A model generated the notes under the pieces. The model saw only the letters and a list, made by a program, of their open reading frames with translations. It did not search any database and was not told the DNA's origin. A program made the position numbers and the translations under genes. From positions 425,501-489,500 of the forward strand of contig NZ_CP073748.1 in the NCBI RefSeq assembly GCF_024398035.1: a DNA stretch of 64,000 nucleotides, in the 5' to 3' direction. The DNA is from Kordiimonas sp. SCSIO 12603 (GTDB lineage: Bacteria > Pseudomonadota > Alphaproteobacteria > Sphingomonadales > Kordiimonadaceae). Below are positions 4,929 through 28,652 of the stretch, in pieces (positions within the stretch are counted from its first letter, which is position 1; every line of letters starts with the position of its first letter).

Positions 4929-5702
4929 ATGACAGAAACCGTATCTCAAGCGGCAGAAAAAAATGCCCCTGAAAAGAAGAATGAAGCCGGATCTCTTTTT
5001 AAAGATATCGTTTCAATCGTTGCTTTCTATTTCATTTTTACCACTTTCGCATGGGGCGCTTTCCATATCCCGTCAGGCAGTATGGAACCAACTCTTGAAG
5101 TTGGTGACCGTATCTTTGTTTCAAAGTTTGCTTACGGATATAACCGTTACAGTTTCCCAATGGACCCGGATTTCATTTCTGAGAACCGCCTGTTTGCCAG
5201 CAACCCTGATCGTGGTGATATTGTCGTATTCGTTCAACCGCACCGTAGTGATGATCATATCATCAAACGGGTAATTGGCATGCCAGGTGACCGCATCCAA
5301 ATGCGAGAAGGCCGCCTTTACATCAACGGTGAGATGGTAGACCGCACATTTATCCGCGATGTAAACTACACCAATTATCAAGGGAATGACCGGCGGGTAA
5401 AAGAATATGAAGAAACACTGCCAGGCGGCGTAAAACACCGAATTTACGAAGCTACTGATCGCGGCCACTATGACAACACACCTGTGTTTGTCGTACCTCA
5501 GGACCATTATTTTATGATGGGTGATAACCGGGATGGCAGCTCGGACAGCCGCAATATTTCAGGCATGGGGCCTGTGCATTCGAAATTTATCGTAGGCGAG
5601 GCAGATATCACCACTTTCAGCCTTTATGATTGTGATCAAGGTAAAGATGTGGGTTGTCTTGGCTTTATTCCTTATGGACGTTTTTTCAATATTATCCGCT
5701 GA
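4929..5702 (+). CDS. lepB: Signal peptidase I (first copy)
   Basis: This membrane serine protease removes signal peptides from exported proteins. It has 257 aa, with one N-terminal membrane helix (about residues 25-44). The nucleophile is in SGSMEPTL (Ser51), the general base is in IIKRVIGMPGD (Lys113), and the conserved GDNRDGSSDSR box lies near residues 197-207. The start has GAGG 6 bases upstream. A second, very similar copy follows directly, so the two arose by tandem duplication. The N-terminal cytoplasmic tails differ while the catalytic parts are nearly the same. Both copies keep all catalytic residues. Confidence 0.97.
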   Translation: MTETVSQAAEKNAPEKKNEAGSLFKDIVSIVAFYFIFTTFAWGAFHIPSGSMEPTLEVGDRIFVSKFAYGYNRYSFPMDPDFISENRLFASNPDRGDIVVFVQPHRSDDHIIKRVIGMPGDRIQMREGRLYINGEMVDRTFIRDVNYTNYQGNDRRVKEYEETLPGGVKHRIYEATDRGHYDNTPVFVVPQDHYFMMGDNRDGSSDSRNISGMGPVHSKFIVGEADITTFSLYDCDQGKDVGCLGFIPYGRFFNIIR

Positions 5703-5868
5703 TAGTCTGAGCCCAACTCTTACAGTTCATCATCATTAGCTGCAGCACACTCACAGGGAGTTTTCTGTTTTTAATGAATGCGTGATTGCAAATACTACCG
5801 CCCACAGTACACTCGCCAACAAAGATGCACTAAGTAATAAGGTGCGGGATGAAAATAAAGGACGGCAG

Positions 5869-6654
5869 ATGACCGATAAACCGGTTGAAATAAAAGAAGA
5901 AAAAGAAGCAGTAGAAGATAAACCCAAAAAGAATGAGCTAGTCGCTCTTCTTAAAGATATCGTTTCCATTATTGCTTTTTACCTTATTTTCACCACCTTC
6001 GCATGGGGTGCCTTCCATATCCCGTCCGGTAGTATGGAACCAACCCTTGAGGTAGGTGATCGGATTTTCGTCTCTAAATTTACTTACGGTTATAACCGCT
6101 ACAGCTATTATTTTGACCCTGATTTTATCTCAGAAGATAAGGTATTTTCAGGAAATCCAGAACGTGGTGATGTTGTTGTTTTCACACTTCCTCACCGTGG
6201 CGGGGATGATTTCATCAAACGTGTCATCGGCCTCCCGGGTGACCGTATCCAAATGCGGGAAGGCCGCCTTTATATTAATGGAAAGATGGTACAACGTACC
6301 TTTATCCGTGATGTGAACTATACCAACTATCAGGGTAGCGACAAAAGGGTAAAAGAGTATGAAGAAATTCTGCCTGGCGGTGTAAAGCACCGTATTTATG
6401 AAGCAACTGACAGGGGCCCTTATGATAACACCCCAGTTTTTGTTGTGCCTCAAGACCATTATTTCATGATGGGTGATAACCGGGATGGCAGCTCGGACAG
6501 CCGCAATATTTCAAATATGGGGCCGATCCACCAGAAATTCATTGTTGGCGAAGCTGATATAACCACTTTCAGCCTTTATGACTGTGATCAGGGTAAAGAT
6601 GTGGGTTGCCTAGGTTTCATCCCATACGGTCGCTTCTTCAATATTATCCATTAG
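5869..6654 (+). CDS. lepB: Signal peptidase I (second, tandem copy)
   Basis: This is a 261-aa paralogue of the preceding gene with the same layout: charged cytoplasmic tail, membrane helix at about residues 30-48, nucleophile Ser55 in SGSMEPTL, Lys117 in FIKRVIGLPGD, then GDNRDGSSDSR. I start it at ATG 5869 because AAAGGA lies 6 bases upstream and it matches the N-terminus of the first copy; a GTG-started extension from 5782 has no supporting ribosome site. A 48-base tract is identical between copies (5514-5561 and 6466-6513), although flanking codons differ. Both should process secretory preproteins; any division of labour is unknown. Confidence 0.95.
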   Translation: MTDKPVEIKEEKEAVEDKPKKNELVALLKDIVSIIAFYLIFTTFAWGAFHIPSGSMEPTLEVGDRIFVSKFTYGYNRYSYYFDPDFISEDKVFSGNPERGDVVVFTLPHRGGDDFIKRVIGLPGDRIQMREGRLYINGKMVQRTFIRDVNYTNYQGSDKRVKEYEEILPGGVKHRIYEATDRGPYDNTPVFVVPQDHYFMMGDNRDGSSDSRNISNMGPIHQKFIVGEADITTFSLYDCDQGKDVGCLGFIPYGRFFNIIH

Positions 6655-9620: not shown

Positions 9621-10444
9621 GTGATTTTTGCCTCCAAGATTTTGCGGAGATCAGCATCAAATCCTACCTCTACGCCGAACCAGATTTTAAAGGCTGCAGC
9701 TCCTTGGTGCACAAGCATTCCTAGCCCATCAACGGTTTTCAAGCCACGTTGCCCTGCATCTTTCAGTAATTCAGTTTCAAGTGGCTTATAAACAATATCA
9801 TACACCGCCGTATCACTGGCTGCATGATCAAGGCTTAACTCAAGAGCAGGCTGGCCTGCCATACCGAGTACAGTTGTATTCACAATAAGACCCGCTGCAG
9901 CCACCGCCTGCGCGCGCGTTTCCCAATCCACCACCGTCATACGGCCACGACCAACATCACCCGCGATTGCTTCGGCTTTTGCTCGTGTCCGGTTAGTGAT
10001 CATCACCATAGGCAGATTTTCATTCACGAGCCCAAGTGCCGCTGCGCGAGCTGCACCACCTGCACCAATAATCAGGGCAGGTTTATCTTTTGGATATTCA
10101 GGCACAATATCTTTCAGATGTTTTACAAGACCAATACCATCCGTATTAAACCCGCTTAATGTACCATCTTCCGATATTTTCACCGTATTCACAGCACCCA
10201 TCTGACGAGCAAGTGGAGCTACTTTATCCAGATATTTAATGATATCTGTTTTATGAGGCACCGTTACATTAAAGCCCGAATATCCTTCTGTTTTAAGGCG
10301 TTCTACAGCCATACCCAATTCTTCTGGAGCCACTTCAATCGCTTCATAATTACCTTCAATTCCGTTTTGTTCAAACCAGTGGTTATGAATAACGGGTGAT
10401 AGAGACTGAGCAATTGGATATCCGATAACAGCGGCTTTTTTCAT
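9617..10444 (-). CDS. aroE: Shikimate dehydrogenase
   Basis: This NADP-dependent enzyme reduces 3-dehydroshikimate to shikimate in aromatic amino acid synthesis. It has 275 aa. The N-terminal substrate domain has the SLSP motif ([10 protein letters not shown]), the catalytic NVTVPHKTD (Lys67 region) and NTDGIGL. The nucleotide-binding loop is [10 protein letters not shown], followed by [10 protein letters not shown], whose basic residues suit NADP. It lies between maf (12 bases upstream) and coaE (ATGA overlap) in one operon. Confidence 0.97.
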
Positions 10445-10456
10445 GGGAAATACTCT

Positions 10457-11053
10457 TTAGAACGGCAACAAATTATAGCGGCGCAGAAAATCAAGAACAG
10501 GTAGGAGAGGCATACCAAGCACGGTGAAATAATCACCATCCACCCGGTTAAAGAGCTGTGCGCCTATACCTTCAATCTGATAACAACCGACAGACCAATA
10601 AGCATCGTCACCTAATATATTGAGATACTGTTTTATGAAGGTATCAGATAATGGCCTCACATCCATTTTCACTTGATCAACCGAACGCCAGATCGCTTGC
10701 CCGTTCTGGCAAATAACCGCTGCTGAGATAAGCCTGTGTTCACCGCCTGATAGTTCTTTTAATGTGGCTTCTGCTTCTTGCTGGTTTGAGGCTTTAGAAA
10801 ATATTTTACCGTCTTTGACCAAAATCTGATCAGCCCCTAAAACCAGCGCTTCCGGATACATGAAAGAAACTGCCCGTGCTTTCATTTCTGCAAGAGCATC
10901 TGCAATATGACGAGGAGCGGCGCCGTCGGCAACCAGCGCTTCTTTCAGAGAAGCTTCATCAACAGGCGCCGTTTGAACGGTAAAATCCACACCAGCGCTT
11001 TTAAGCATTTTTGCTCTGGTTTTACTGCCTGAGGCTAAAATAAATTCAATCAT
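10457..11053 (-). CDS. maf: Maf/YceF-type nucleoside triphosphate pyrophosphatase
   Basis: This 198-aa house-cleaning pyrophosphatase has the Maf fold. The N-terminal ASGSKTRAKML matches the family phosphate-binding motif (SxSxxR), and the catalytic LGADQIL resembles the SDQ/ADQ form of the YceF subfamily (m7GTP-type substrates) rather than the ADT form of dTTP/UTP enzymes. The C-terminal GMPLLPVLDFLR is also family-typical. I start at ATG 11053 with AGGT seven bases upstream. It sits four to five bases after ppsR and upstream of aroE. The subfamily assignment rests on one residue. Confidence 0.9.
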   Translation of the reverse strand: MIEFILASGSKTRAKMLKSAGVDFTVQTAPVDEASLKEALVADGAAPRHIADALAEMKARAVSFMYPEALVLGADQILVKDGKIFSKASNQQEAEATLKELSGGEHRLISAAVICQNGQAIWRSVDQVKMDVRPLSDTFIKQYLNILGDDAYWSVGCYQIEGIGAQLFNRVDGDYFTVLGMPLLPVLDFLRRYNLLPF

Positions 11054-11058
11054 CACTC

Positions 11059-11958
11059 TTACCTAAGATCAGACGGTAATTCGTGTGCGTGTGTTTTTCC
11101 GTTTTTCTCTAACCACTGATAATAACGGTTCAGGATTGCAGCTGCTGTTTCCTCAATAGACCGCCGGGTTACATCAATGGTTTGCCAGCCACGTTTTGTG
11201 CAGTAACGGCGGCATTCTTTGATTTCATCCTGAATTTGATCCCGGTCTGTATAATCCGCTTCCTCATCTTCATTGATAGAGCGCAAACGATTAGTCCTAA
11301 TTTGAACAAGGCGTTCTGGGCTTGTCGTTAATCCAAGCACGAATTTATCTTTGAGGTTATCGAGTTCCATCGGCATCGGGCAATTGGGCACAAACGGAAC
11401 ATTCAATGTTTTATAACCCTTATTAGCAAGATAAATACTGGTTGGTGTTTTCGATGAACGGGATACACCTACCAATATAATATCTGCTTCATTTACATCT
11501 TCAACAAGCTGACCATCGTCATGAGCCATTGTAAAATGAAGAGCATCAATTCGCTGAAAATAGTGAGCATCCATCGTATGTTGACGCCCCGGTTTATGAG
11601 AAGCTTGTTGCCCGAAATATGAACCGAGTAGATTAATCACCGGATCAAGGATTGAGAGTACTGGTATGTTTTTTTCCATGCAGGACTGTTCCAGAACCTG
11701 CCTGATTTCAGTGTTCACCAACGTATACATAACAAGGCCTGGCTGCTCACATATATCTTCCATCAAACGAGACATTTGCATTGCTGAACGAACAAGCGGC
11801 CAATAATGTTTGTGAACATTCACTCCTTCGAACTGAACAAGAGCTGCTGATACGATTGCCTCAAGAGTTTCACCTGTAGAGTCAGAGACCAGATGCAAAT
11901 GAAATTGAACTTCATTGCTTGACTCAGATTCCTGAAAACCGGGCAGTGGAGGACTCAT
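11059..11958 (-). CDS. ppsR: Pyruvate, phosphate dikinase/PEP synthase regulatory protein (DUF299)
   Basis: This bifunctional kinase/pyrophosphorylase switches pyruvate-phosphate dikinase or PEP synthase off and on using ADP and phosphate. The start region HLVSDSTGETLE (about residues 22-33) and the P-loop GVSRSSKT (164-171) are diagnostic. I take the ATG at 11958 (299 aa), because the longer frame runs into the origin region and would cover a perfect DnaA box. It is the first gene of the maf-aroE-coaE-dnaQ operon and flanks oriC opposite hemE, the arrangement known from Caulobacter and Rickettsia. Which of the two dikinases it regulates is not shown. Confidence 0.95.
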   Translation of the reverse strand: MSPPLPGFQESESSNEVQFHLHLVSDSTGETLEAIVSAALVQFEGVNVHKHYWPLVRSAMQMSRLMEDICEQPGLVMYTLVNTEIRQVLEQSCMEKNIPVLSILDPVINLLGSYFGQQASHKPGRQHTMDAHYFQRIDALHFTMAHDDGQLVEDVNEADIILVGVSRSSKTPTSIYLANKGYKTLNVPFVPNCPMPMELDNLKDKFVLGLTTSPERLVQIRTNRLRSINEDEEADYTDRDQIQDEIKECRRYCTKRGWQTIDVTRRSIEETAAAILNRYYQWLEKNGKTHAHELPSDLR

Positions 11959-11968
11959 GGGAATAACC

Positions 11969-11977
11969 TGTGGATAA
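11969..11977 (-). promoter_or_regulatory. DnaA box (perfect)
   Basis: TGTGGATAA, the complement of the consensus TTATCCACA, lies 11 bases upstream of the chosen ppsR start. Confidence 0.8.
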
Positions 11978-12237
11978 CTTGTTGGTGTAAATGTTGAAAA
12001 GCACATTAGGCCACTTACCCCCAATTTGTATAGAGAGAGTTCACACAGGAGTGAATCTTATCCCAAGCCTGTGCAAAGTTTAATAACCTGAGTCGCCAAA
12101 ACTGAGTCTTTTTCGGTTATCCCCAGTTTCCACAGACAGAGTCAAAGTCTCGAATCGCGAGGTTTTCTGCACAGTCCAGAGTCTTACTCACAGAATCACT
12201 GTTAAAATGCCGCAGAACCCTTGTTTGTGCACAAGCT

Positions 12238-12246
12238 TGTGGATAA
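12238..12246 (-). promoter_or_regulatory. DnaA box (perfect)
   Basis: TGTGGATAA sits directly beside TTGTGCACAA (12225-12234), which reads as a one-mismatch box on both strands. It faces the AT-rich tract that begins about 35 bases to the right. Confidence 0.85.
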
Positions 12247-12370
12247 ATAGTTTTCCCCATGATTCACAGGGATTCACTACTACTACAAGATTCTATTATA
12301 TTTATATTTAAGTATTAGTATGGTCGCCCTATAGATCGTCCCGTGTATAAAACTGTCAGGTAAAAGCATT

Positions 12371-13402
12371 ATGGCTAAAATTCTTCTAGAGACTCTCAAG
12401 GGTAACCCCGGTGAAAAAGTTCCATTCTGGTTCATGCGTCAGGCAGGAAGATATTTGCCTGAATACAGAGAGGTGCGTTCTACTTGTCCGTCTTTCATGG
12501 ATTTTTGCTATAGCCCCGATAAAGCGACAGAAGTAACCTTGCAGCCTATCAGGCGTTACGGCATGGACGGTGCAATTCTTTTTGCAGATATACTTGTGGT
12601 ACCAGACGGATTAGGTCAGCAGGTTTGGTTTGAGACTGGGTTTGGGCCAAAGCTTGATCCGGTAGCAACAGAAGAAACTTTCTCAAAACTATCGATGGCG
12701 AACTTCCACGATAAAGTAGGGAACGTTTATAAAACAGTTTCAAACCTTTCTTCAGCGCTTCCTGAAAATGTAACGCTTCTTGGTTTTGCGGGGGCACCCT
12801 GGACAGTGGCAACATACATGATTGCGGGACAAGGCAGTAAAGACCATGCAGCTGCTCGTCAGCTTGGATACGGCAATCCAGATCTATTTGGCCGTATCTT
12901 AAATATGCTGGTGGACGCAACAGCTGAATATCTTTGCCGTCAGATTGAAGCCGGCGCGGATGCTGTACAGATTTTTGATAGTTGGGCAGCCGCGATCCCT
13001 GAAACAATGTTTGATGAATGGATTATAAAGCCCACCAAGGCCATTGTTGAGAAGGTTAGGGCGAAGCATAGCGAAACACCTATCATCGGCTTCCCACGGC
13101 TTGCAGGCGCTGCTCTAGCACGTTTTGTAGAGGAGACAGGGGTAGATGCTGTATCCCTTGATACAGGTGTGCCGCTTGAGTGGGCTGCAAGTGAGGTTCA
13201 AAGTAAGGTTTGTGTACAAGGGAATATGGATCCGCACCTAGTGGTTTCAGGCGGTGATTTAATGGTGAGCGAAGCGAACCGGATTATGGAAAGCCTGAAG
13301 GGCGGCGCGCACATCTTTAACCTTGGTCACGGTTTTGTACCTGAAACACCGCCAGAGAATGTAGCCTTGCTTTCTGAAACTATTAAGAACTTCAGGCGAT
13401 GA
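12371..13402 (+). CDS. hemE: Uroporphyrinogen decarboxylase
   Basis: This enzyme removes four carboxyl groups from uroporphyrinogen III to make coproporphyrinogen III in haem synthesis. It has 343 aa, the normal length. The signature FMRQAGRYLPEYR (residues 21-33) carries the substrate-binding arginines; LFADILVVPDGLG contains the catalytic aspartate, and GFAGAPWTVATYM and NLGHGF are also conserved. It is the first gene right of oriC. Its stop overlaps the start of a small membrane protein by four bases (ATGA), and hemJ follows in the same manner, forming a tightly coupled haem operon. Confidence 0.98.
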   Translation: MAKILLETLKGNPGEKVPFWFMRQAGRYLPEYREVRSTCPSFMDFCYSPDKATEVTLQPIRRYGMDGAILFADILVVPDGLGQQVWFETGFGPKLDPVATEETFSKLSMANFHDKVGNVYKTVSNLSSALPENVTLLGFAGAPWTVATYMIAGQGSKDHAAARQLGYGNPDLFGRILNMLVDATAEYLCRQIEAGADAVQIFDSWAAAIPETMFDEWIIKPTKAIVEKVRAKHSETPIIGFPRLAGAALARFVEETGVDAVSLDTGVPLEWAASEVQSKVCVQGNMDPHLVVSGGDLMVSEANRIMESLKGGAHIFNLGHGFVPETPPENVALLSETIKNFRR

Positions 13403-13584
13403 GTAAACAGCTAAAAAATATGTTGTTCTGGGGAAGTCTTGCCATTGGGTTGATTTTTTCCCTTCTTCAAGTTTATTCGCCATATGGTGGCGTCGGATAT
13501 AGAAGGTCTTTGGCTATATTAACAACCTGTTTGCTCCTAGTAGTAGCGTATAAAAAAATTAGAAAAGTACAGAAAGATAAATGA
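13399..13584 (+). CDS. Small membrane protein between hemE and hemJ
   Basis: This 61-residue protein has two hydrophobic segments (about residues 8-24 and 37-51) separated by a short loop YSPYGGVGYRR, and a lysine-rich C-terminus, suggesting a two-helix membrane hairpin. ATGA overlaps at both ends join it to hemE and to hemJ, so it is clearly translated as part of the haem operon. I do not recognise the family. A role in assisting HemJ or haem trafficking is only a guess from context. Confidence 0.75.
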   Translation: MSKQLKNMLFWGSLAIGLIFSLLQVYSPYGGVGYRRSLAILTTCLLLVVAYKKIRKVQKDK

Positions 13585-14033
13585 TGGTTGAGCCAGGTTT
13601 TTTGGGTGACGCTTACTTTTACGTAAAAGCGGGCCACATAATTTTCGTGATCTTTTGGATGGCCGGTATGTTCATGTTACCTCGGTATTTTGCTTATCAT
13701 ATGCAGTGTGAAGTTGGCAGTGAAGAAGATGGTAAATGGATTGAGCGTGAAAAAAGCCTGATGCGGATTATCATTAATCCTGCCATGACTATTGCCTGGA
13801 TTCTAGGGCTAACACTTGCCTTCAATATTGGTTTTGATGCAGGTGGTTGGCTTCATGCAAAACTGCTTCTTGTGTTTATCCTTTCAGGTTTTCACGGTGT
13901 TCTTTCCAAATGGCGCAAGAAAATTGCAGCTGGCGAACGAGATAAAAGCGAAAGCTTCTACCGCAAGATAAATGAAGTACCAGCTATCTTCATTATTGTG
14001 GTTGTTATCCTCGCTGTCGCAAAACCATTCTAA
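13581..14033 (+). CDS. hemJ: Protoporphyrinogen IX oxidase HemJ
   Basis: This 150-aa membrane protein of the HemJ/UPF0093 family oxidises protoporphyrinogen IX to protoporphyrin IX. It has about four membrane helices. The N-terminal helix contains VKAGHIIFVIFWMAGM (His19) and LPRYFAYH (Arg35, His40), where the family's haem-ligand and essential residues reside. HemJ is the usual enzyme for this step in alphaproteobacteria. Two consecutive ATGs begin it, the first overlapping the upstream stop codon. It ends the hemE operon, ahead of a hairpin and rho. Confidence 0.93.
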   Translation: MMVEPGFLGDAYFYVKAGHIIFVIFWMAGMFMLPRYFAYHMQCEVGSEEDGKWIEREKSLMRIIINPAMTIAWILGLTLAFNIGFDAGGWLHAKLLLVFILSGFHGVLSKWRKKIAAGERDKSESFYRKINEVPAIFIIVVVILAVAKPF

Positions 14034-17866: not shown

Positions 17867-19216
17867 ATGATGATGGATACGATTTTCGCCTTGTCTTCTG
17901 GTGCTGGTACAGCTGGTGTTGCTGTTATCAGATTATCTGGTCCAAAGGCGTTAGAAGCCCTTATGATACTTTCAGGCAAAGATCTTCCAAAGCCCCGTAT
18001 GGCTGCTCTCCGTGAGCTTAAAGATCACCGGACTGGTGTAAGGCTTGATAAATCTCTTGTGCTCACTTTCCCTGCGCCCGCCAGTTTTACAGGCGAGGAT
18101 GTAGTGGAGCTTCACCTTCATGGTGGGCGTTCAGTGATCACAGGTGTTCTTGAAGCTCTCACTGAAATTGATAGTCTCCGCATGGCGGAACCTGGTGAGT
18201 TCTCTAAACGTGCTTTCGAAAATGAGAAACTTGATCTTACGGAAGCTGAAGGCCTCAATGATCTAATTCATGCGCAAACAGCAGCGCAGCGAGAACAAGC
18301 ACTAAGACAGTTGGATGGTGCTTTAAAGGATCTTTATGAAGATTGGCGGGGTAGGTTGATTGGCCATTTGGCACATCTGGAAGCAGATATTGATTTCCCT
18401 GATGAAGATTTGCCTGAAGGTGTGGCCGGTGCTGTGCTCCCCAATATTACATCGCTTAGAGATGATATTGAAGGATACCTGAAAGATAATAAAAGGGCAG
18501 AAGCAATCCGTGACGGCTTCCGTATTGTTATCCTCGGGGAGCCAAATGCTGGTAAATCTACACTGATGAACGCGCTTTCTAAATCTGATGTTGCCATCGT
18601 TTCTGATGAGAAGGGCACCACACGAGATGTGATTGAAGTGAACCTTGACCTGGGCGGCTATCCTGTAAGGCTGATTGATACAGCTGGCCTCAGGGAGGGC
18701 GAAGGAGATGTTGAGCGTGAAGGTATCAGGCGCGCTGAAAAGAAAGCTGAGGAAGCTGATCTTCGCCTTGTTCTTGTTCGTGCTGATGAGTGGCCAACTA
18801 TCCCTGAGGCAGCTTCCAAGTGGCTTGATGAGGATGCAATTCTTGTAATCACACAAACAGATCGTGTTTCTATGTTTCACGTGAAACATGATGATGTACC
18901 AAACGGTATGAAAGTTATCACCGCGTCTGTGAGAGATAACCATGGCTTGGATGAGCTTCTGTCCACTGTAGAAGATTTTGTAAGTGAAGCGATGGCTCCC
19001 CGTGAGTTACCATCCCTTACGCGAGTGCGACATAGAAAAGCGCTTGAGGACACAGTAGATCATCTTTACCGATTCGAGGATAATGCTGGTTTGGACGCAG
19101 TTTTAGCTGCTGAAGATGTTCGTATGGCTGCTCGTTCACTTGGTAAAATCACCGGCCGCGTTGGTGTGGAAGATATGCTGGATGTTGTGTTTTCTGATTT
19201 TTGTATTGGAAAATGA
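17867..19216 (+). CDS. mnmE: tRNA modification GTPase MnmE
   Basis: With MnmG, this GTPase installs the (carboxymethyl)aminomethyl group on U34 of certain tRNAs. It has 449 aa. The N-terminal tetrahydrofolate-binding domain contains GEDVVELHLHGG and EPGEFSKRAF. The inserted G domain has P-loop GEPNAGKS (224-231), GTTRD and DTAGLRE, and the C-terminal CIGK carries the essential cysteine. Three consecutive ATGs begin it. A perfect parS site lies inside the G domain (encoding FHVKH) and another starts right after the stop codon. The G4 box is ITQTD rather than NKxD, a notable departure. Confidence 0.97.
   Translation: MMMDTIFALSSGAGTAGVAVIRLSGPKALEALMILSGKDLPKPRMAALRELKDHRTGVRLDKSLVLTFPAPASFTGEDVVELHLHGGRSVITGVLEALTEIDSLRMAEPGEFSKRAFENEKLDLTEAEGLNDLIHAQTAAQREQALRQLDGALKDLYEDWRGRLIGHLAHLEADIDFPDEDLPEGVAGAVLPNITSLRDDIEGYLKDNKRAEAIRDGFRIVILGEPNAGKSTLMNALSKSDVAIVSDEKGTTRDVIEVNLDLGGYPVRLIDTAGLREGEGDVEREGIRRAEKKAEEADLRLVLVRADEWPTIPEAASKWLDEDAILVITQTDRVSMFHVKHDDVPNGMKVITASVRDNHGLDELLSTVEDFVSEAMAPRELPSLTRVRHRKALEDTVDHLYRFEDNAGLDAVLAAEDVRMAARSLGKITGRVGVEDMLDVVFSDFCIGK
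18873..18888. promoter_or_regulatory. parS: parS centromere site 1
   Basis: This is a perfect 16-bp palindrome TGTTTCACGTGAAACA, the bacterial consensus ParB-binding site, embedded in the coding sequence of mnmE. Confidence 0.95.
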
Positions 19217-19232
19217 TGTTTCACGTGAAACA
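19217..19232. promoter_or_regulatory. parS: parS centromere site 2
   Basis: A perfect TGTTTCACGTGAAACA begins directly after the mnmE stop codon, in the mnmE-mnmG gap, and is the only intergenic copy. Confidence 0.95.
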
Positions 19233-21230: not shown

Positions 21231-21854
21231 ATGTCTTACAGCTTTTCTGATCTTGAGCGTGATTTAGATGTTTCACGTGAAACACTGGATAAAATTAAAG
21301 TCTACGGTGACCTATTAGTTAAATGGCAGAAAGCTAAAAATCTGGTCTCTAACAGTACTCTCGACGATATCTGGAGACGTCATTTTCTCGATTCGGCACA
21401 AATGGCACCACTTCTTAAGGAGCGATTCGGTGAAAAGCAGATCAAAATGCTTGATATTGGTTCAGGAGCCGGCTTCCCGGCACTTGTTCTTGCAAGCATG
21501 GGAATTGGTGAAGCTCATATGGTGGAATCTGTCGGCCGTAAGTGTATTTTTATGCGTCAGGTTTCACGTGAAACATCCGCAAACGCGCAGATTCACAACG
21601 TTCGTATCGAAGAACTAGAGCCGTTTGAGGTTGATATTGTTACCTCCAGAGCGTGCGCTCGTGTGCTTCAGCTGATGAATTGGGCAAAACCTTTCCTCAA
21701 AGAAAATGTAGAAATGTGGCTTCTGAAGGGAGAAACTGCAGAAGAGGAATTGACCGAAGCTCAAGCTTATTGGAAGATGGATATCAACCGCTTTGATAGC
21801 CTATCAGACCCGAGCGGGGTCATCTTAAGGCTAAGCAACATAAAACAGCTGTAA
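21231..21854 (+). CDS. rsmG: 16S rRNA (guanine(527)-N(7))-methyltransferase RsmG
   Basis: This SAM-dependent enzyme methylates G527 of 16S rRNA. From ATG 21231 it has 207 aa, the usual length; a longer TTG-started frame would overlap mnmG and is unlikely. The SAM-binding motif is MLDIGSGAGFPALVLA (about residues 75-90), preceded by RRHFLDSAQ. Two parS palindromes are read through as DVSRET and QVSRET, so the protein sequence accommodates centromere DNA. It links mnmG to parA. Confidence 0.96.
   Translation: MSYSFSDLERDLDVSRETLDKIKVYGDLLVKWQKAKNLVSNSTLDDIWRRHFLDSAQMAPLLKERFGEKQIKMLDIGSGAGFPALVLASMGIGEAHMVESVGRKCIFMRQVSRETSANAQIHNVRIEELEPFEVDIVTSRACARVLQLMNWAKPFLKENVEMWLLKGETAEEELTEAQAYWKMDINRFDSLSDPSGVILRLSNIKQL
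21269..21284. promoter_or_regulatory. parS: parS centromere site 3
   Basis: A perfect TGTTTCACGTGAAACA lies within the first 60 bases of rsmG, encoding part of DVSRET. Confidence 0.95.
21560..21575. promoter_or_regulatory. parS: parS centromere site 4 (15 of 16 match)
   Basis: GGTTTCACGTGAAACA differs from the consensus only in the first base; the inner 14-bp palindrome is intact. It lies in rsmG, encoding part of QVSRET. Confidence 0.9.
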
Positions 21855-21902: not shown

Positions 21903-22697
21903 ATGTCTAACGGGCAAGCTCATATTATTGCTGTTGCTAACCAAAAGGGTGGGGTTGGCAAAACAACAACAACGATTAATTTAGCCACTGCTATGGCTGC
22001 AGTGAAAAAGCGTGTGCTTATTCTGGATTTAGATCCTCAAGGGAACGCCAGCACAGGCTTTGGCATTGATCGCGGAGCCCGTGAAATTACTTCGTATGAC
22101 GTCGTACTTGGAGCAGCACCGCTTGGTGATGCTGTTCTTGAAACAGAAGTGCCAGGACTTTCTATTATTCCTTCTACCGTTGATCTTTCTGGTGCTGACC
22201 TTGAACTAGCAGAGCTTCCTCAGCGTAATTTCCGCCTAAAACAAGCATTTGAGAAGGCATCTGCTTATGATGAATATGATTATATTCTCATAGATTGCCC
22301 GCCATCTCTCTCGCTTCTCACCATTAATGCCTTGGTTTCAGCAGATAGTGTGCTTGTCCCGCTTCAGTGTGAGTTTTTTGCACTTGAAGGCCTTAGTCTT
22401 CTTCTAAAAACTATTGAGCAAGTTAAAGCCAGCTTGAACCCAGAGCTGGAAATTAATGGTGTGGTACTCACGATGTTTGACAAACGGAATAATTTGTCAG
22501 AACAAGTGGCAGAAGATGTTCGTGCATATCTAGGGGATAAGGTTTATCAAACTGTGATCCCGCGGAATGTAAGAATTTCAGAGGCTCCGAGCTTCGGTAA
22601 ACCAGCAATTCTTTATGATCATCGCTGTACGGGCAGCCGAGCTTATATTGAATTGGCACGAGAAGTACTTGGGCGCGGCAGCAAGATAGCTGCTTAA
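21903..22697 (+). CDS. parA: Chromosome partitioning ATPase ParA (Soj)
   Basis: This deviant-Walker ATPase moves replicated origins. It has 264 aa. The deviant Walker A is KGGVGKTT (residues 15-22), then LDLDPQGNAST (switch I region), and Walker B is YILIDCPPSLSLLT. It has no N-terminal DNA-binding domain, so it is of the chromosomal Soj type. It follows rsmG by 48 bases and precedes parB by 37, the standard rsmG-parA-parB order near alphaproteobacterial origins. parS sites upstream form its centromere. Confidence 0.98.
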   Translation: MSNGQAHIIAVANQKGGVGKTTTTINLATAMAAVKKRVLILDLDPQGNASTGFGIDRGAREITSYDVVLGAAPLGDAVLETEVPGLSIIPSTVDLSGADLELAELPQRNFRLKQAFEKASAYDEYDYILIDCPPSLSLLTINALVSADSVLVPLQCEFFALEGLSLLLKTIEQVKASLNPELEINGVVLTMFDKRNNLSEQVAEDVRAYLGDKVYQTVIPRNVRISEAPSFGKPAILYDHRCTGSRAYIELAREVLGRGSKIAA

Positions 22698-22734: not shown

Positions 22735-23658
22735 ATGGCAAAAAATGCTCGTAAAGGGCTGGGAAGAGGGCTTTCAGCACTTCTGGCAGATGATAGACCA
22801 GCATTAAATACAGTTTCAGAAAAAACTGCTGTTCAGGATGGTACAGGTTCTGATGGCGCGCCTAGTGGCCGTCGCCGTTTGCCTATCGAGTTCCTTGAAA
22901 GAAATGCTGCCCAGCCGCGTGTGCATTTTGATGAAGAGGCACTTAATGAGCTTTCAGCTTCTATTAAAGAAAAGGGGCTGTTACAGCCAATTCTTGTTCG
23001 TGAACTAGGTCCTGAGAAATTCCAAATCGTTGCGGGTGAGCGCCGCTGGCGTGCATCACAGCGTGCGGGTATTCATGAAGTACCAGTAGTGGTGAAAGAA
23101 CTTAGCGATACTGAAGTTCTTGAAATTGCTATAATAGAGAATATTCAGCGCCAGGATCTGACTGCTATTGAAGAAGCCATCGGCTATAAGCGCCTGATGG
23201 AGGAGTTCAAGCATACGCAGGAAGCGGTTGCAGAGGTGGTTGGTAAAAGCCGTAGCCATGTAACTAACCTTCTTCGCCTCTTAACACTGCCTGAAGAAGT
23301 ACAGCAGATGGTAGCTCGCGGGGACCTCTCTATGGGGCATGCCCGTACGCTGATTGGTAGTAGCGATCCGCTTGAACTGGCAAAACGGGTGGTGAAAGAA
23401 GGGCTTAGCGTACGCCAGACAGAAGCTTTAGCTAACGAAAGCAAAGGTAAACAGAAGCGTCAACCACGCCCTGGTGGTACTGGTTCAGCCAAGAAGAAAG
23501 ATGCGGATACTATCGCGCTTGAGAAAGATCTTACAGCAGCGGTTGGCATGAAAGTATCCATCGAGCATGAAGGCGAGGCCGGTAAGGTAGTTATCGCTTA
23601 TGAAGACCTTGAAAAGCTTGATGAACTTTGCAGTAAACTAGGTGTTTGTGGATTTTAA
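22735..23658 (+). CDS. parB: Chromosome partitioning protein ParB (Spo0J)
   Basis: This CTP-dependent clamp loads at parS. It has 307 aa. The N-terminal GLGRGLSALL (residues 8-17) stimulates ParA in the family. The ParB/Srx CTP-binding domain contains GERRWRASQRAG (101-112) and ENIQRQDL (135-142). The helix-turn-helix is near 161-185 (TQEAVAEVVGKSRSHVTNLL) and the C-terminal dimerisation domain follows a Lys-rich linker (about 235-260). The matching parS sites lie 1.2 to 4 kb upstream. A strong terminator follows. Confidence 0.98.
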   Translation: MAKNARKGLGRGLSALLADDRPALNTVSEKTAVQDGTGSDGAPSGRRRLPIEFLERNAAQPRVHFDEEALNELSASIKEKGLLQPILVRELGPEKFQIVAGERRWRASQRAGIHEVPVVVKELSDTEVLEIAIIENIQRQDLTAIEEAIGYKRLMEEFKHTQEAVAEVVGKSRSHVTNLLRLLTLPEEVQQMVARGDLSMGHARTLIGSSDPLELAKRVVKEGLSVRQTEALANESKGKQKRQPRPGGTGSAKKKDADTIALEKDLTAAVGMKVSIEHEGEAGKVVIAYEDLEKLDELCSKLGVCGF

Positions 23659-27446: not shown

Positions 27447-28652
27447 TCAGATTACAAGCTTTTGCAGTATGTAATTTAACAGGGGTCGCCCTTTAACTGA
27501 TAACTGCAGTTTATCGGTTCTATCAGTGATAAAACCATCAGTTTTCATGTTTGATAGTTCTGTATTATTGATGATCTGGTTTGTAGAATACCCAAACCTT
27601 TGTTCCCAAGTTGCTATATCAACACCGTCCCTTAGGCGTAGCCCCATCATCAGTGCTTCCACAGCCCTGTCTTCAGCATCCACATATTCCAGGGTTTCGA
27701 GGCCTGTGCCGTTTGCTTCAACAGCTCTCATCCAGTCCTCAGGGCGTTTGATTTGCGCGTGCGCATATGCGGAACCGTGGTCCTGCGCAGGAAGTCTGCC
27801 GTGAGCACCTGGACCAATACCTACATAATAATCCCCTTGCCAGTAACAAAGATTATGCTGGGATTCCTCGCCTGCAGCTGCGTGGTTGGATGTTTCGTAG
27901 GCGGGTAGGCCTTTGGCTTCGGTTAGTTGTTGCGTGAGATCATACAGTTCTGCCGCTTCGTCTTCATCAGGCAGGGTAAACTTACCCCTGTGGAACTGGT
28001 GGTAGAAGGCTGTGCCTTCTTCAATCGTTAGCTGGTAGAGCGATAGATGGGTAGGATCAAAGGCCAAGGCTTCTTTAAGTTCGGTTTCCCAGTCTGTAGG
28101 GCTTTGCTGAGGTCTGGCATAGATTAAATCAAAACTAACTCTATTAAAGTTGTTTCGAGCAACTTCTAGAGCTTTTAGGGCTTCGCCAGCATTATGTAAT
28201 CTGCCAAGAAACTTTAAAGCATCATCTCTAAGTGATTGAATGCCAACAGAAAGCCTGTTTACACCAGCTTGTTTGTAAGCTTGAAATCTTGAAGCCTCTA
28301 CGCTTGAAGGGTTTGCTTCCAACGTTATTTCAATTTCTCGGTTTGGCGCCCAGTGTTTTTGAATGGTTTCAATAACAGCATATACTGTTTCTGGCTCCAT
28401 CAGGCTTGGTGTGCCGCCACCAAAGAAAATTGATTTGGCAGAAAGGTTTGGAAACTTTGTTGCCATGGTTTCAATTTCCTGCACGAGGGCATTTCGCCAT
28501 GTTTCATGTGAAACATGATCACGTACGTGGCTATTGAAATCACAGTAAGGGCATTTTTTCAGGCAAAAAGGCCAGTGCACATAAACGGCAGCTGGCCCTT
28601 TGTAATCACTACCCTTATGGGCGGGCAGGTTATTTGGTGTCAAAGCAGGCAT
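27447..28652 (-). CDS. hemW: Radical SAM haem chaperone HemW
   Basis: HemW is the radical-SAM protein formerly called coproporphyrinogen oxidase-like (HemN-like), which handles haem. It has 401 aa. The 4Fe-4S motif is [10 protein letters not shown] (Cys30, Cys34, Cys37), followed by FGGGTPSL and the HemN-family SVGIQSL. It has CxxxCxxC and lacks the fourth cysteine of true HemN (CPYCDF rather than CxYCxC), in line with HemW. Its 5' end overlaps rdgB by 23 bases. A near-perfect parS-like palindrome lies inside it at 28500-28515. Confidence 0.94.
28500..28515. promoter_or_regulatory. parS-like site (one central mismatch)
   Basis: TGTTTCATGTGAAACA inside hemW differs from the parS consensus by one base in the centre (CACGTG to CATGTG). 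It is 7 kb from the parS cluster. It may be a weaker ParB site or a chance match. Confidence 0.55.

Follow-up and report, generated by a model that had tools for sequence, protein, structure and literature searches.

The stretch of DNA analyzed here, hereafter the window, is 64,000 nucleotides long and covers positions 425501-489500 of the one-contig genome of Kordiimonas sp. SCSIO 12603 (3,850,845 bp, listed as 100% complete); judged by the ppsR protein, the closest named record found is Kordiimonas laminariae 5E331, whose ppsR protein is identical. The locus consists of two divergent genes and the 412 bp between them:

11059..11958, minus strand: ppsR (DUF299/COG1806, RP001-type), left origin flank (PF03618, E 5.1e-96)
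11959..12370, no strand: oriC intergenic region, 412 bp (GC-skew minimum at 12342, box cluster, synteny)
12371..13402, plus strand: hemE, right origin flank (PF01208, E 1.3e-112)

The initial annotation had described 11959-12370 as free of genes, which is true if ppsR starts at the ATG at 11958; an upstream TTG at 12024 would extend the ppsR open reading frame into the gap, and the Pfam domain of ppsR starts 20 residues past the ATG at 11958. An Rfam scan of 10000-14000 returned zero matches at gathering scores. The gap is 59.5% AT, compared with 54.3% for the window.

The same annotation had counted two perfect DnaA boxes and at least four one-mismatch boxes in the gap, and had placed an AT-rich tract near 12281-12321. 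All three observations were reproduced: the perfect box TTATCCACA occurs at 11969-11977 and 12238-12246, six further sites inside 11959-12370 match TTATNCACA with one mismatch (12117, 12165, 12184, 12225/12226, 12260, and 12342, with 12225/12226 being both strands of a single site), and the tract is 85% AT, a value reached by only 30 of 63,960 equal-size windows, the tract itself included. The sites outside the conserved tandem pair described below are as follows:

11969..11977, minus strand: DnaA box, perfect, ppsR side
12117..12125, plus strand: DnaA box, one mismatch
12165..12173, plus strand: DnaA box-like, one mismatch to TTATNCACA
12184..12192, plus strand: DnaA box-like, one mismatch to TTATNCACA
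12225..12234, no strand: DnaA box-like palindrome TTGTGCACAA
12238..12246, minus strand: DnaA box, perfect; conserved left-facing core box
12281..12321, no strand: AT-rich tract, 85% AT, probable unwinding element, overlapping the trio array
12342..12350, minus strand: DnaA box-like, one mismatch to TTATNCACA, hemE side of the AT-rich tract

Across the whole window no excess of boxes was found (62 vs. 62.1 expected), while the gap holds 9 matches, a count that includes the perfect boxes and both strands of the palindrome, whereas the gap, dinucleotide-shuffled 1000 times, averaged 0.58 and never exceeded 4; the argument from the boxes therefore rests on their clustering. When a 412-base frame was slid along the window by 20 bases, the densest stretch started at 11941 and held 10. 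Two other pairs of perfect boxes within 412 bases exist elsewhere in the genome, so boxes alone are insufficient to identify the origin.

Perfect TTATCCACA boxes also show a genome-wide distribution of their own. They number 77, vs. 29 for a reversed control word, and are absent from 2123959-2748910, a 625-kb stretch around the terminus (chance probability about 1e-4). Outside the origin they are strand-polarised by replichore, 55 to 20, a bias that is partly GC skew, as same-composition control words give a 1.58-fold bias.

GC skew was then used to locate the replication start. The cumulative skew minimum of the window is at 12342, inside the gap. Beyond the window, skew was read over about 25% of the chromosome, mainly in 20-kb samples at 40 even intervals. 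All 20 samples on the terminus-to-origin side that runs through position 1 have negative skew; across the origin-terminus axis, 19 of 20 are positive and the remaining one is at -0.004. Thus, in the GC-skew check that the initial annotation had named for its reading of 11959-12370 as the chromosomal oriC, the sign changes at the gap, and that reading is borne out by the skew switch together with the conserved flanking genes. The skew maximum lies at about 2,412,435 in a contiguous 212.5-kb stretch, which gives replichores of about 1.97 and 1.88 Mb. The gene strands match the switch, as most Pfam-scanned proteins are encoded on the minus strand left of the gap (9 of 11) and on the plus strand to its right (12 of 17). 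Two neighbouring signal-peptidase S26 genes (window 4929-6654, plus strand) lie inside the left replichore. A scan of the genome with the dif consensus gave one three-mismatch match, which is not near the skew maximum and was rejected; a dif-like candidate at 2409574-2409601 (minus strand), 2.9 kb from the skew maximum in the 212.5-kb terminus stretch, ranks second by score, the top scorer having a poor left arm.

Partitioning genes and sites lie on the hemE side of the gap:

18873..18888, no strand: parS, perfect
19217..19232, no strand: parS, perfect
21269..21284, no strand: parS, perfect
21560..21575, no strand: parS, one mismatch
21903..22697, plus strand: parA
22735..23658, plus strand: parB
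28500..28515, no strand: parS, one mismatch

An earlier statement that parA, parB, and parS all lie within 10 kb of the origin stands for parA, whose far end is about 10.3 kb from the gap, and for four of the five parS-like sites (three perfect and two one-mismatch in the window), which lie at 6.5-9.2 kb; parB starts 10.4 kb from the gap, slightly past that distance, and the fifth parS-like site lies at 16 kb.

In many bacteria oriC adjoins dnaA, and in this genome dnaA occupies positions 1-1389, where the numbering of the record begins, so an origin at dnaA was considered, with the ppsR/hemE gap being merely a DnaA-regulated promoter region. The adjacency of oriC and dnaA in many bacteria is also stated in PMC1914354. 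However, the sampled stretches that flank position 1 (at 3,753,751 and at 1) both have negative skew, so no switch occurs at dnaA, and the skew switch, the parS cluster, and the box cluster all lie about 437 kb away from it. An origin at dnaA is therefore contradicted by GC skew and is extremely improbable. Together, these results support 11959-12370 as the chromosomal replication origin of this Kordiimonas genome.

To see how far the arrangement extends, ppsR and its neighbour were followed through the family, order, and class groupings as given by the genome search. Among 59 genomes from the genus, family, and order, counting the own one, 57 carry ppsR, and hemE is divergently adjacent to it in 55 of these 57, own included, with about 256-583 bp between the two genes; the two exceptions are contig or record ends that cut the locus. 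At the class level, ppsR was found in 51 of 77 genomes (own included), and hemE is adjacent, within the fetched stretch, in 35 of the 40 genomes that were read from the 50 others. Excerpts of PMC1914354 describe hemE and COG1806 as the flanks of the Caulobacter crescentus and Rickettsia origins, and the likeness to them that had been drawn for ppsR and hemE was found again here and in the relatives. The Kordiimonas gap resembles those origins in its flanks, its length of about 400 bp, its DnaA boxes, its AT-rich part, and an AT content above that of the genome (PMC1914354). The location of the origin is thus ordinary and textbook for the class. In contrast to the Caulobacter origin, for which five CtrA sites and one IHF site are given (PMC1914354), no CtrA site TTAA-N7-TTAA was found in the Kordiimonas gap at up to one mismatch, two positions fitting only the loose TTWW-N7-TTWW; CtrA control of this origin was rejected because the sites are missing from the gap. 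For the IHF pattern WATCAN5WTR, the gap has zero exact matches and six with one mismatch.

The gap is also dense in GANTC, the CcrM target:

12053..12293, no strand: ten GANTC sites, at 12053, 12090, 12104, 12139, 12152, 12179, 12193, 12261, 12271, and 12289

Shuffles of the 412-bp gap hold 1.38 GANTC on average and 6 at most, with 0 of 5000 reaching 10, and the origin cluster is the densest in the 996,500 bases of the genome examined. With respect to the elements described below, the site at 12261 falls in the second tandem box, the one at 12271 in the spacer, and the one at 12289 at the trio-array end, and the genome encodes a CcrM-type methylase with a RAMA domain as well as GcrA. These observations would fit an origin timed by methylation, in which the DNA stays hemimethylated after firing until late CcrM activity and this state blocks or permits DnaA binding, like Dam and SeqA, which control oriC through GATC in enterobacteria. 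The likeness to the enterobacterial origin consists of dense methylation sites across the origin, one or more of them overlapping a DnaA box; unlike there, the motif is GANTC rather than GATC (one GATC in the gap) and the cluster is not conserved. Among the gaps read, ten GANTC sites are confined to the own genome and G016, which is taken to be K. laminariae 5E331 from its matching coordinates and whose gap differs from that of the window by one base, and the other gaps hold 0-7. The group-wise excess over shuffles is modest and common to the control motif AGNCT (GANTC 1.71 in the own family, own gap included, then 1.29 and 1.25 in the wider groups; AGNCT 1.70, 1.39, and 1.12). GANTC was therefore rejected as a conserved origin feature, being lineage-specific. 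The Caulobacter origin likewise has several GANTC sites, yet deletion of ccrM left initiation there undisturbed (PMC3973325, excerpt), and in Agrobacterium, according to excerpts of PMC11514494, an effect of CcrM was seen at the second, RepC-dependent origin, with no obvious effect at the DnaA-dependent origin. Methylation timing of the Kordiimonas origin is consequently regarded as quite improbable.

Several further observations concern the methylation system elsewhere in the genome. The second-densest GANTC cluster in the bases examined, 9 sites in 408 bp (L038:11011-11418, about 2,802,261), lies upstream of gene L038:9851-10969, with genes further along read as flagellar hook-associated, and is possibly a CcrM/GcrA-controlled promoter. 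The gene beside the ccrM-type gene was read as RNase HII. A perfect DnaA box occurs at 3233693-3233701, about 280 bp past the point where the RAMA match of the ccrM-type gene ends on its 3′ side.

To find the parts of the origin that are kept among relatives, the 175 bases before hemE were aligned for 28 own-family gaps. The alignment has a single strongly conserved block, which consists of the left-facing box TGTGGATAA, four or five bases, and two tandem right-facing boxes with the family consensus TT.TCC.CA followed by ..TTCACAG (the second also given as ..aTTCACA); after the tandem boxes come a short spacer, a triplet array, and the AT-rich tract. In the window these elements are:

12251..12259, plus strand: first tandem box of the unwinding core, TTTTCCCCA, family consensus TT.TCC.CA
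12260..12268, plus strand: second tandem box, TGATTCACA, family consensus ..aTTCACA
12277..12288, minus strand: putative DnaA-trio array, plus-strand CTA CTA CTA CAA, which is 3′-GAT GAT GAT GTT-5′ on the minus strand

In the basal unwinding system (BUS) of Bacillus subtilis, as described in excerpts of PMC8287927, PMC6669920, and PMC10721633, two boxes are followed by a spacer and by 3′-GAT-5′ repeats where DnaA assembles. The published BUS rule asks for a box with at most two mismatches, a spacer of at most 16, and at least three trios with a middle A (PMC8287927); the window falls within it, with the box TGATTCACA at two mismatches, a spacer of 8, and three middle-A trios, the first three trios being the canonical 3′-GAT-5′. 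The own family is like the Bacillus BUS in its tandem boxes, of which the upstream one is closer to consensus in 22 of 27 gaps (equal in 3, further in 2), in its short spacer, in a trinucleotide array that reads 3′ to 5′ away from the boxes, and in the AT-rich DNA that follows. Relative to the second box, the array stays in one fixed triplet register in 26 of the 28 gaps of the own family; in the other two it is shifted by one base.

By analogy with the Bacillus subtilis BUS, DnaA would bind the box cluster of 11959-12370, an ATP-DnaA oligomer would spread from the tandem boxes at 12251-12268 onto the minus strand of the trio array at 12277-12288, and the oligomer would then pull the adjoining AT-rich tract open. 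We infer this opening mechanism from the architecture of the origin. Taken as a whole, 11959-12370 is very probably oriC, where bidirectional replication of this chromosome would start, presumably opened through a DnaA-trio.

The letters of the array were then compared among relatives. For pooling, 27 own-family gaps were used, G016 being excluded as a near-duplicate. The pooled array has C at the first base in 95 of 108 triplets and A at the third in 97 of 108, with A53/T40/C15 in the middle, so the family consensus is 5′-CNA-3′, or 3′-GNT-5′ on the unwinding strand. Three consecutive middle-A trios among the first four occur in just 3 of the 27 gaps; as the middle adenine is not conserved, the element is filed as a variant working like the BUS and not as a plain member.

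A wider comparison was made in 88 gaps, comprising the 27 of the family, 26 of other families of the order, and 35 of the class (G032 placed with the class). Since an anchored search for the trios found no anchor in 8 of 55 gaps, anchor-free counts were added, in which a strict array is defined as four consecutive C.[AT] triplets, the middle base ignored, in the hemE-proximal 150 nt. Strict arrays occur in 14/27 family, 10/26 order, and 20/35 class gaps, 44/88 in total, compared with 0.6, 0.85, and 1.9 expected when the final 220 nt are dinucleotide-shuffled. The complementary strand of these 150 nt has such arrays in 5/88, and the ppsR end in 0/88 (plus strand) and 2/88 (minus strand). A strict run is absent from the other 44 of the 88 gaps, 15 of them in the class group, where the origin status of some gaps is uncertain. 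The published middle-A pattern, taken as five consecutive trios, barely exceeds shuffles in the same groups (14/27, 7/26, and 7/35 vs. 10.2, 6.65, and 5.05). Two control patterns, A at every third base (17, 13, and 13 vs. 9.5, 8.1, and 6.9) and A.C repeated four times (1, 4, and 3 vs. 0.1-0.28), also exceed shuffles, partly because they pick up the same arrays in another register.

The 176 trios of the strict runs have a plus-strand middle base of A in 71, T in 61, C in 44, and G in 0, that is, T, A, or G on the unwinding strand and C in 0/176. In looser arrays, which require only C at each first position and are found in 65/88 gaps, many by chance, a middle G occurs in 27/260, compared with a base G share of 19% in this gap DNA, and the array of G105 has one CGA, with middle C on the unwinding strand, outside the counted run. 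Given these looser arrays and the CGA of G105, avoidance of C at the middle position of the trio in this class is suggested by the counts and not proved. The trio seems to keep G as its first base and T as its third, the latter being A in some more distant relatives, with the middle varying among T, A, and G. In contrast, the Bacillus trio has A in the middle, which can be replaced by C, while G and T are poor (PMC10721633, excerpt), so the middle bases T, A, and G of the strict arrays in the class differ from those that Bacillus uses or tolerates.

Whether these triplets are bound by DnaA was weighed against two other readings. An array with C at every third base could be the site of another factor or a part of the hemE promoter: strict arrays begin 44-148 bp (median 92) before hemE, the role of the array as a trio is predicted, and the middle-A rule of five consecutive trios barely exceeds shuffles here. 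However, the array occupies the place of the BUS trios, with the fixed register just given for 26 of 28 own-family gaps, it is on the strand that the BUS predicts and ends at the AT-rich tract, and the array of the window itself is an exact 3′-GATGATGAT-5′, which makes another factor or a promoter element unlikely. The array is probably the DnaA-trio of the class, an assignment that is held with some reserve.

A second reading concerns the register. DnaA might capture 3′-TG-5′, in which case the trio would be 3′-TGN-5′, shifted by one base, with the captured pair conserved and the third base free; on the unwinding strand, the two adjacent letters that vary least are T and G, and the Bacillus structure shows two captured bases and a third that points away (PMC10721633, excerpt). 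Against this, the ends of the array fit 5′-CNA-3′ better, as position -3 is C in 18/27 gaps and the last unit has C in 26/27 and A in 22/27, and if the base were free, C should not be missing from all 176 strict trios. The shifted register is a live but unlikely alternative to 3′-GNT-5′.

In the Bacillus structure, Arg202 and Glu228 hold the G of the trio, Asn187 and Glu183 hold the middle A, and Asn196 is touched by the third base; none of the base-pocket residues is universally conserved according to the authors (PMC10721633, excerpts). An alignment of the Kordiimonas DnaA with the Bacillus chain, free of gaps in this region, gave Asn187→Phe, Asn196→Lys, and Arg202→Lys, with both Glu kept. 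The comparison was extended to 96 distinct alphaproteobacterial DnaAs (28 from the family, 30 from the order, and 39 from 76 class genomes besides the own, one being shared). Phe or Tyr occupies position 187 in 84 of them, and the remainder have His (4), Val (4), Leu (3), or Asn (1). All 96 have Lys at position 202, and 4/96 keep Asn196. In 20 DnaAs of other Pseudomonadota (of 52), position 187 is Thr in 7, Ala in 6, Gln in 3, Asn in 2, Leu in 1, and Ser in 1, so that Phe or Tyr occurs in 0/20 and Asn187 in 2/20. In the 20 genomes read of these 52, oriC was not located in the regions upstream of dnaA.

We infer that the varied middle base goes with the replacement of Asn187 by Phe or Tyr, and residue 187 as the cause is conceivable, although doubtful. 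An aromatic side chain at 187 could stack on the flipped base without demanding an amino group, which would fit a free middle position; the stacking idea gives no explanation for the avoidance of C. The change of letters and the change of residue each map to one class, and as both are class-wide, the association may rest on a single event. G105 keeps Asn187, yet has an array with mixed middle bases.

In family f5, five of six members have Val or Leu at position 187, and four have almost no boxes or array. The gaps of these four (G038, G053, G049, and G044) measure 256-284 bp and contain 0-1 recognisable DnaA boxes and an array that is faint or missing, and their DnaAs are 43-51% identical to that of the Kordiimonas genome, with Val at position 187; their origin or their box code may have changed.

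Based on these comparisons, we tentatively propose, at somewhat less than even confidence, that the alphaproteobacterial trio code is 3′-G-[T/A/G]-[T/A]-5′, with middle C avoided, and is read by a DnaA with Phe or Tyr at 187, near-opposite to Bacillus. If true, the variant would have been hidden because the published trio search required a middle A. As a sequence pattern the class-wide variant has good support; as a mechanism it is unproved. In the literature on the DnaA-trio together with alphaproteobacteria or with Caulobacter oriC unwinding, as far as the excerpts go, no description of a variant trio or of residue 187 was found, and the excerpts of PMC5043019 describe no alphaproteobacterial trio; likewise, no literature was found that joins the DnaA-trio with GANTC, Kordiimonas with a replication origin, or the initiator specific motif with alphaproteobacteria.

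The place of this origin is textbook, and its value lies in the comparison of the letter rule of the trio that it allows across the class. The recognition of the opened strand by DnaA has been solved in the Bacillus system and proposed to be broadly conserved. If alphaproteobacteria indeed keep the triplet rhythm with changed letters and a changed base pocket, the sequence logic of origin opening would have diverged, and trio predictions that require a middle A could miss or misplace the opening site in this class.
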